From: Ignavibacteriaceae bacterium
Lineage (GTDB): Bacteria > Bacteroidota > Ignavibacteria > Ignavibacteriales > Ignavibacteriaceae
Direction of reading: 5' to 3'
Assembly (NCBI GenBank): GCA_014860115.1
Contig: JACZKK010000183.1
Span: forward strand, 1-34,741
Length of the DNA: 34,741 nt
Shown: positions 2,850 through 9,907 of the stretch, one piece after another
Position numbering within the stretch: position 1 is the first letter of the stretch
How the letters are laid out: each line of letters opens with the position of its first letter
Notes under the pieces: model-generated
The model's database searches: none
Told to the model about the DNA's origin: nothing
What the model saw: the letters and a program-made list of their open reading frames with translations, nothing else
Made by a program: the position numbers and the translations under genes

Positions 2850-3276
2850 TGCTTCTCCATTTTCTAAGAGGCACTTTAATGTTTTGTGGATGATTTCCTG
2901 TTAACAAAGGTTCCGGTCTCGGATGACCTTCGAAAGTAACTCCAAGCATTTCAGACATTTCTCTTTCAATCCATTCTGCACCACGAACGACCGGAGTTAT
3001 TGAATTCATCCTTGGATTTTTTTTATCAGTCATAACAATCCGTGGACAGTAATACTCACCCGATTTATCAAGTGAAAAATGATAGAGAACTTCGATCCCT
3101 CTGTAGGTTTCTGTTGCTGTTGCGGTTGACAATCTGCAGCCGAGTTTGGTGAAAAGATAATCAGCAACTTCAATTATGTTCTCATTGCCGACTTCAAAGT
3201 AAAGTCTTTTTTGTTTTTCATTCTTTGATAAGATTTTATTTCCCATCAAAGAAATAAATTCACTGTAGTTATGCAT
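2842..3276 (-). CDS. NuoC-like hydrogenase subunit (30 kDa NADH dehydrogenase family)
   Basis: A 144-residue soluble subunit matching the NuoC/HycE-N/MbhK family. The conserved block is GAEWIEREMSEMLGVTFEGHP, with the EREMxEMxGxxFxGHP signature that packs against the large subunit. It has a structural and assembly role and binds no cofactor. It overlaps the small-subunit gene upstream and the large-subunit gene downstream by 8 bases each, as expected for coupled translation of subunits in one complex. In E. coli HycE this domain is fused to the large subunit; here the two are separate, as in Ech and Mbh complexes. Confidence 0.9.
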   Translation of the reverse strand: MHNYSEFISLMGNKILSKNEKQKRLYFEVGNENIIEVADYLFTKLGCRLSTATATETYRGIEVLYHFSLDKSGEYYCPRIVMTDKKNPRMNSITPVVRGAEWIEREMSEMLGVTFEGHPRPEPLLTGNHPQNIKVPLRKWRSNG

Positions 3277-3688
3277 TTAAAACCCCCGCAAGTTTTACTA
3301 CGCCTTCAATCATTGCTTCCGGTTTTGGCGGACAGCCGGGAATATATAGATGAATCGGAATTACATCTTCTCTCTTTTTTACTGTGTTGTAGCTATCCTT
3401 AAAGCAGCATCCCGAAGCCGGACAGGTTCCAACTCCAACTACAAAACAGGGTTTTGCAGCTTGCTCGTAAATCTTTTTTACCTGCGGCGCAACTTTCTGA
3501 TTGATGACTCCGCTTAATAGTATTACATCGGCGTGACGAACTGAACCGACAAGCTTTATTCCGAATCTTTCAACATCATACTTCGGAGTAAGCAGATCGA
3601 GTATTTCAATATCGCAGTTGTTGCACGGCGACGCACTCATATGATAAACCCAGATGGATTTGGCAAGCCGCTTATTGTACCAACTCAT
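3269..3688 (-). CDS. Group 4 [NiFe] hydrogenase small subunit (NuoB/MbhJ/HycG-like)
   Basis: A 139-residue protein of the NuoB family that carries the proximal [4Fe-4S] cluster next to the NiFe site. The four ligands are visible: CNNC (C22, C25), GTC (C89) and PGCPP (C119). It is short, with only the flavodoxin-like domain and no extra ferredoxin domain, as in Ech and Mbh small subunits. The ATG at 3688 has GAGG 6 bases upstream. A 119-base gap holding a structured repeat separates it from the NuoH-like gene before it. This is the only real gap downstream of the NAD(P)H-module genes in the operon. Confidence 0.93.
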   Translation of the reverse strand: MSWYNKRLAKSIWVYHMSASPCNNCDIEILDLLTPKYDVERFGIKLVGSVRHADVILLSGVINQKVAPQVKKIYEQAAKPCFVVGVGTCPASGCCFKDSYNTVKKREDVIPIHLYIPGCPPKPEAMIEGVVKLAGVLNA

Positions 3689-8493: not shown

Positions 8494-9306
8494 TTATGGT
8501 TTATACCCAACTACCGTTATGCTAAAAATTCCAACATTATTGTTTTTCAACAATTTAATCTCTAATTCATTCAGATATTCTTTTAGAACATTATCGGGTA
8601 ACTCAATCACTTTTATTTTTTTGATTTCAACATTTTCAAAACCAGTTTCTTTAATGATACTTAAATAATCATCCTGCTGAAGTGCACCAGCAACACAACC
8701 TGCATACATCTCTGCTGACTTTTGCAATCCTTCAGGAAGTTCACCTTTGATAACAATATCAGAAACGCAAAAATGTGCTCCTGGTTTTAATATTCTATAA
8801 ATCTCTTCAAATGCTTTTCTTTTATCAGGGACAAGATTCAGCACACAGTTACTTATCACAACATCAGCAATATCATTTTCCAAAGGCATACTCTCAATCT
8901 CACCAAGTCTGAACTCAACATTCTTAAAACCAGCTTTGATTTTGTTTGCATTTGCTTTTTCTATCATCTCTTCTGTCATATCCAGACCTATTACTTTACC
9001 TTCATCACCCACAATTGATCGGGCAACAAAAACATCATTACCTGCACCGCTGCCAAGATCAACCACTGTATCACCTTTTTTAATTCCGGCAAATTCGGTT
9101 GGTAAACCACAGCCCAATCCGAGATCTGCATCAGCTACATAGCCATCAAGATTATTGTATTCATCCTGCATCACAGTATAACCGACGATTTTACTTTCTT
9201 CACCACCGCAGCATGTCGGTCCGCAGCATCCCGAACTTTTCGATGCTTTAGCTATTTCCCCGTACTTTTCTTTTACAATTTGCTTTAAATCATTTGCTGC
9301 TTCCAC
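8494..9306 (-). CDS. arsM: Arsenite S-adenosylmethionine methyltransferase ArsM
   Basis: A class I SAM methyltransferase of 270 residues that should methylate As(III) to mono-, di- and trimethyl arsenic. The SAM site is VVDLGSGAGND (81-91). The three arsenic-binding Cys of the family are present at C66 (GLGCGLP), C154 (SNCVLNLVPD) and C204 (YAGCVAGAL). The last two are 50 residues apart, as in characterised ArsM. An extra N-terminal CCGPTCC lies at 27-33. The frame is open back to an ATG at 9423, but I start at the GTG at 9306: AAGGAG lies 7 bases upstream, and the first 39 codons of the longer frame overlap a separate 47-codon ORF that resembles ArsM itself. Confidence 0.92.
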   Translation of the reverse strand: MEAANDLKQIVKEKYGEIAKASKSSGCCGPTCCGGEESKIVGYTVMQDEYNNLDGYVADADLGLGCGLPTEFAGIKKGDTVVDLGSGAGNDVFVARSIVGDEGKVIGLDMTEEMIEKANANKIKAGFKNVEFRLGEIESMPLENDIADVVISNCVLNLVPDKRKAFEEIYRILKPGAHFCVSDIVIKGELPEGLQKSAEMYAGCVAGALQQDDYLSIIKETGFENVEIKKIKVIELPDNVLKEYLNELEIKLLKNNNVGIFSITVVGYKP

Positions 9307-9307
9307 T

Positions 9308-9451
9308 TTACTTCTCCTTCTTTTGATTTTTTCTATTCTCATTTGAACTGCTGCAACAAGTTGGTCCGCAGCAGCTTGATACTTTTTGTTCTTTAGCAAT
9401 TTGTCCATGTTTTTCTTTGACATTTTGCTTCACTTCACTTGATGATTTCAT
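9308..9451 (-). CDS. 47-residue Cys-rich protein resembling the N-terminus of ArsM
   Basis: This small ORF runs from an ATG at 9451, with GGAG 6 bases upstream, to a TAA at 9308-9310, one base before the arsM GTG. Aligned without gaps from its start codon against arsM from its GTG, 19 of the first 33 residues are identical, including the KxK..G.IAK helix and CCGPTCC at 27-33. After this it diverges into a polar Lys/Asn-rich tail (SSSNENRKNQKKEK). It has no SAM domain. It may be a small thiol-rich arsenic-binding protein, or the remnant of a tandem arsM duplication. It lies between arsR and arsM on the same strand, so it should be arsenic-regulated. Confidence 0.75.
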   Translation of the reverse strand: MKSSSEVKQNVKEKHGQIAKEQKVSSCCGPTCCSSSNENRKNQKKEK

Positions 9452-9535
9452 TTTTTACTCCTTTTTAGGACGTCAGATAATGTTTGTTAAGTTATATATT
9501 ATGAAACTTCACTATTTCACGTCTTGATTTTTGAT

Positions 9536-9853
9536 TTAACAACAACCAATTTTTGAAAATAATTTATCTAACGCAGTTTTTGCTTTAGCGAGGTTTTTAT
9601 TGTTGACACAGTAACAGATTTTAGGGCCGACTATATCGCCATCAATTAAACCCACACGCTTAAGTTCTTTTAAATGTTGTGAAACAGTTGCCTGTGCCAG
9701 TGGAAGTTTATCAACAATACTTCCGACCATGCAAGAATCCATTTCAGTTAGGATTTTAAGAATTCTAATTCTTGCAGGATGAGAAAGCGCTTTTGCCACA
9801 TCTGCAAGCCAATTGTCTTCCTGCGTGAATTCTTCTTTCTTTGATGATGCCAT
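9536..9853 (-). CDS. arsR: ArsR/SmtB-family transcriptional repressor
   Basis: A 105-residue winged-helix regulator. The N-terminal part (ALSHPARIRILKIL) and the recognition helix region (LAQATVSQHLKELKRVGLI) are typical of ArsR. Cys residues that could sense As(III) are C41 in MDSCMVG, the CYC pair near residue 80 and the terminal GCC. The classic ELCVCDL motif is absent, so it uses another metalloid site. It lies upstream of the small Cys-rich ORF and arsM, on the same strand, and probably represses this operon and itself. The ATG at 9853 has an AGGA 8 bases upstream. Confidence 0.9.
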   Translation of the reverse strand: MASSKKEEFTQEDNWLADVAKALSHPARIRILKILTEMDSCMVGSIVDKLPLAQATVSQHLKELKRVGLIDGDIVGPKICYCVNNKNLAKAKTALDKLFSKIGCC

Positions 9854-9873: not shown

Positions 9874-9907
9874 ATCGTAAATATACGATAGATTTATAAA
9901 ATGTCAA
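9874..9907 (-). promoter_or_regulatory. arsR promoter with an overlapping palindromic operator
   Basis: On the minus strand TTGACA (9907-9902) and TATATT (9885-9880) are 16 bases apart, a good -35/-10 pair. A perfect inverted repeat, ATCGTA (9874-9879) and TACGAT (9884-9889) with a 4-base centre, covers the -10 and start-site region, 21 bases before the arsR ATG. The position is what is expected for autorepression by ArsR. The divergent antiporter promoter must lie in the remaining bases up to 10032 and is not obvious. Confidence 0.7.

Follow-up and report, generated by a model that had tools for sequence, protein, structure and literature searches.

The ars cluster of the window (the whole 34,741-nucleotide stretch analysed, a contig of an Ignavibacteriaceae genome termed G000) raises the question of whether a very short open reading frame between arsR and arsM, hereafter the micro-gene, is a gene in its own right or mere debris of arsM and, in the former case, what its peptide may do. 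The preliminary description had placed a 47-codon ORF with a good ribosome-binding site at this position, and both are present, with the ATG at 9451 and AAGGAG at 9463-9458. The features referred to below are:

9880-9907, minus strand: sigma-70-like promoter match upstream of arsR (11/12; a consensus match only)
9536-9853, minus strand: arsR, the upstream gene in the cluster, whose protein ends ...IGCC
9458-9463, minus strand: Shine-Dalgarno AAGGAG of the micro-gene; the sister species G002 shares AAAAGGAGTAAAAA ahead of the ATG exactly, and the remaining spacer has diverged
9308-9451, minus strand: micro-gene, 47-codon ORF, ATG to TAA (ORF call, with an orthologue in G002 at L007:1501-1641)
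9346-9376, minus strand: Cys and Ser codons that may fold into an RNA hairpin (stable in G000, ordinary in G002)
9344-9373, minus strand: conserved core CCGPTCCSSS, codons 27-36 of the micro-gene
9314-9319, minus strand: Shine-Dalgarno AAGGAG of arsM, within the final micro-gene codons
8494-9306, minus strand: arsM, GTG start, 270 aa
9208-9228, minus strand: parent copy of the motif, CCGPTCC in the N-terminal arm of ArsM

The micro-gene (9451-9308) encodes a 47-aa peptide, MKSSSEVKQNVKEKHGQIAKEQKVSSCCGPTCCSSSNENRKNQKKEK, whose N-terminal part is lysine-rich and variable and whose CCGPTCCSSS core is strictly conserved. Its stop codon (TAA, 9310-9308) is separated by a single base (A, 9307) from the GTG of arsM at 9306. 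Searches of the Pfam and NCBIfam profiles found no Pfam domain and no NCBIfam match except ArsM, and the single-sequence fold of the peptide, with a pLDDT of 64, gives no structural information. The DNA pattern for CCxPxCC occurs at only two sites in the whole genome, the micro-gene and the ArsM arm.

The micro-gene is masked if arsM is called from 9423 in another frame, as had been pointed out and as we confirmed: the arsM frame is open above the GTG, and the ATG at 9423 gives an overlapping 309-aa call whose first 39 residues cover part of the micro-gene (9307-9423). This N-terminal extension changes unlike coding sequence, and between G000 and G002 codons 25-36, read in the overlapping arsM frame, show 1 synonymous and 7 nonsynonymous differences. 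Because the extension is not evolving as protein, the GTG start of arsM is better supported, and automatic annotation from ATG 9423 likely hides the micro-gene. The ArsM of the window scores 343 bits against NF008823. Cys66, Cys154, and Cys204 (numbered on the first row of the alignment) are invariant among 37 aligned ArsMs and align with Cys72, Cys174, and Cys224 of CmArsM, which are reported to bind As(III) (PMC12608789).

The same genome has a second ars cluster on contig C208 (L223, ~35727-39178) with genes for an ArsR-like regulator, a large permease, ArsC, and ACR3. In G001, G004, and G002, arsC lies directly after arsM. Downstream of arsM, the acr3 match in G002 (L158) is a fragment with a stop and falls below the cut-off, so the closed G002 genome seems to be without an intact ACR3.

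As judged from sequence comparison, the micro-gene is by origin a tandem duplicate of the 5' end of arsM. The peptide aligns without gaps, from its first codon, with ArsM read from GTG 9306 (VEAANDLKQIVKEKYGEIAKASKSSGCCGPTCC...); over 33 positions 19 residues match besides the start, and both have the CC..CC motif of the arm. Among 200,000 residue shuffles the maximum was 12 identities and none reached the observed 20/33, so that the gap-free alignment first described, 19 of 33 residues including CCGPTCC, is borne out. The two regions also align as DNA, and positions 2-41 of NF008823 match the ORF (E 3e-4). The duplicated segment of ~145 bases would comprise the arsM ribosome-binding site and 5' end, with a first copy that spans the Cys arm and stops within the second copy's leader; a stop one base before the GTG and an arsM Shine-Dalgarno in the last codons are what is expected after such a tandem duplication.

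A copy of this kind could be a truncated duplicate in decay, functionless and open by chance, and its clear derivation from the arsM 5' end, the fast divergence of codons 2-24, the unconserved tail, and its rarity in the lineage are all in keeping with that explanation. The comparison with G002 argues otherwise. This sister species has arsR, a 46-codon ORF (MKNPNEPKKNVHEKNEQSEKSNDSSNCCGPTCCSSSDKNDSRRKGK), one base, and arsM in the same place and order as G000. The two micro-genes are saturated at synonymous sites and differ over most of the peptide, yet CCGPTCCSSS is identical. Of the differences in core codons 25-36, 6 are synonymous and 1 is nonsynonymous (Fisher p 2e-5), although these counts are small, stem from two sequences, and are taken at saturated synonymous sites; the test for purifying selection that had been suggested for this ORF thus finds it in the core, in the frame of the micro-gene, across the two species. 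Alignment z-scores fall from 9.5 in the core to 3.6 in codons 2-24, 0.7 in the arsR-ORF spacer, and 0.3 in the tail, and in a neutral simulation to the G000/G002 divergence the start, the open frame, and all four Cys were kept in ~1/10,000 trials. Taken together, the z-scores, substitution counts, and simulation indicate that the Cys core is selected as a peptide, the N-terminal part weakly, and the tail not. The case of G002 is notable because its ArsM arm reads GCGCGCG, and CCGPTCC persists there in the micro-gene only.

The start, ribosome-binding site, and both Cys pairs, whose retention had been taken to speak for use, are all kept in G002 together with the frame, and this sole close relative with the ORF shows neither a frameshift nor the loss of a Cys pair. 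Decay is improbable in view of the excess of synonymous change in the core at saturated divergence, the conserved Shine-Dalgarno and start, and the neutral expectation of 1e-4, and the micro-gene is very probably a real gene, not mere debris. The preliminary description had offered two readings, an arsenic-binding peptide or a truncated duplicate; the latter is right as to origin, and the copy is one selected on its Cys core, with conservation strong in the core and not in the rest of the arm.

The small ORF before arsM was sought in relatives, as had been proposed. Among the six genomes of the genus it occurs in G000 and G002, whereas the other four species have arsR then arsM with no trace of the ORF; the micro-gene is therefore not general. 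The pgi tree groups G000 and G002 with support of 100/99, so that a single ancestral gain is enough. Resolution is poor in the arsM core tree, which weakly pairs G002 with G004. In another family, G039 has a separate 49-aa ORF (MRNKKEIKK...CCDSTCCGSS...) directly before arsM, with a gap of 3 bases; its start, MRN...EIK, matches that of G039's own arsM. This ORF is most likely an independent gain, since it is absent from the congener G116. In G039 (L205, reverse complement 3125-3290) the separate ORF and arsM share a frame, and the sequence between them is just TAA and ATT; but for this one stop, the arrangement would be a fused double-arm ArsM. Fused forms were also found: an extra CCxPxCC lies in frame ahead of the normal arm in the ArsMs of G125, G057, G092, G141, G408/G441, and an acidobacterium (L190). 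The loci of ArsMs with a fused second N-terminal CCxPxCC (L052, L057, L115, L148, L200, L201, and L190) come from several lineages.

A Cys-containing arm was present in all 119 ArsM rows of the order that were inspected (a few genomes being counted twice), mostly with 3-4 Cys at varying spacing. A class-wide search of 391 genomes gave the two orthologues, the one parallel case in G039, and no further convincing separate copy. In the GTDB genome collection, the search for a separate CCxPxCC ORF with arsM returned 28 matches; L190 alone among them is an ArsM, and its CCxPxCC is fused. The pattern required TGC as the first codon, by which about half of the cases would be missed. The corresponding plasmid search found none. 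CCxPxCC sites elsewhere in the order are background-like, and the inspected ones outside arsM look like chance. Short-frame matches in G196, G349, G397, G204, and G339 had neither arsM context nor the Cys motif and were discarded.

If the micro-gene is a gene, its contribution might lie in the act of translation instead of in the peptide. One such proposal is that the ORF only brings ribosomes to the arsM start, its amino-acid sequence being irrelevant. The stop-to-start geometry, equal in G000 and G002 and similar in G039, would suit this, but the amino-acid conservation of the core is left unexplained, which makes coupling alone quite improbable. The main rival to an As(III)-binding peptide is a leader peptide, whose Cys codons would slow translation (through cysteine supply, or As(III) on nascent thiols) and control arsM via a hairpin or coupling, the free peptide having no job. 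The arsM ribosome-binding site inside the ORF and the arsM start one base past its stop would fit such a role, and Cys-rich short ORFs reportedly act as cysteine-responsive attenuators in mycobacteria (Canestrari 2020; leaderless ones, by its title). Moreover, the Cys/Ser hairpin of the window has a folding energy of -15 kcal/mol, a stability that 98% of synonymous recodings do not attain. However, the G002 hairpin is ordinary (-9.2, with 28% of recodings equally stable) and is missing from the fold of the full G002 ORF; as a conserved RNA element the hairpin was rejected by this recoding test, not being maintained in G002. Between the ORF and arsM we found no minus-strand terminator-like site and no conserved RNA switch of the kind that defines a Cys-responsive attenuator. 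In the core, Gly, Pro, Thr, and Ser are preserved as well as the Cys, and the extra CCxPxCC fused inside other ArsMs cannot serve as a leader; these fused forms speak for a motif that acts at the level of the protein. A leader function is accordingly unlikely.

The fused relatives suggest one more possibility, namely that a programmed frameshift or readthrough joins the ORF to ArsM and yields a minority of double-arm enzyme. In G000 as in G002, the arsM frame stays open over the greater part of the ORF, and fused double-arm ArsMs do exist. Such joining would nevertheless need a +1 shift in G000 and G002 and stop readthrough in G039, there is no shared slippery site by eye, and arsM has its own ribosome-binding site and start. 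We rejected this fusion on geometry and regard it as highly improbable.

The function that we favour as most likely, with about even confidence, is that of an As(III)-binding peptide that is co-translated with ArsM and acts as a detached second Cys arm. Co-transcription with arsR and arsM is probable, and the stop-to-start geometry suggests that translation of the micro-gene is coupled to that of arsM. The two vicinal Cys pairs would bind As(III), and the detached arm may capture As(III) and then pass it to ArsM or buffer it. ArsD, in which vicinal Cys sites bind As(III), requires a three-Cys site with a vicinal pair (Cys12, Cys13, and Cys18) to work as an As(III) metallochaperone (PMC4562236). 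More tentatively, the micro-gene may represent an ArsM accessory of a new type, a peptide that descends from the Cys arm of the enzyme, is made separately but in coupled translation, and delivers As(III) to ArsM in trans, within a wider pattern in which an extra CCxPxCC module has been repeatedly gained, separate or fused.

To our knowledge, the route by which ArsM enzymes receive As(III) in the cell is not settled, and with a gene that consists of the Cys arm alone and is maintained by selection, and with repeated fused CCxPxCC gains, the role of the ArsM arm becomes directly testable. The micro-gene would also be a clear case of a functional gene of fewer than 50 codons under a wrongly extended neighbour. 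Its parts, the ArsM arm and vicinal-Cys As(III) sites, are already known. A search of open-access text found no description of a separate arm gene before arsM and neither CCGPTCC nor any of three close variants.

Several known systems share features with the micro-gene. Like the mycobacterial attenuator uORFs it is short, rich in Cys, and placed just ahead of a gene, but those are leaderless by title, whereas the micro-gene has a Shine-Dalgarno, no terminator, and conserved non-Cys core residues. ArsD serves ArsA, not ArsM. It is likewise a small protein of ars clusters with vicinal Cys pairs, although it is much longer than the micro-gene peptide, with no sequence or Pfam match, and the micro-gene, whose sole NCBIfam match is ArsM, does not fall in the ArsD family with its Cys12-Cys13-Cys18 site. 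In the ArsD of E. coli, further CC pairs occupy positions 112-113 and 119-120 (PMC4562236). With the ArsM arm (NF008823/PRK11873) the micro-gene shares a homologous start, KEK(Y/H)G(E/Q)IAK, and CCGPTCC; it differs from ArsM in being a stand-alone peptide of 47 aa that scores 20.2 bits against a family cut-off of 263 bits and has no SAM-binding methyltransferase domain with its catalytic Cys, which is present in the downstream ArsM. The ArsMs with a fused second CCxPxCC (G125, G057, G092, G141, G408, G441, and L190) similarly carry an additional motif ahead of the ordinary arm, which in G125 and G057 looks like an arm duplicate, but there the motif is in frame with ArsM, whereas the micro-gene is a separate gene.
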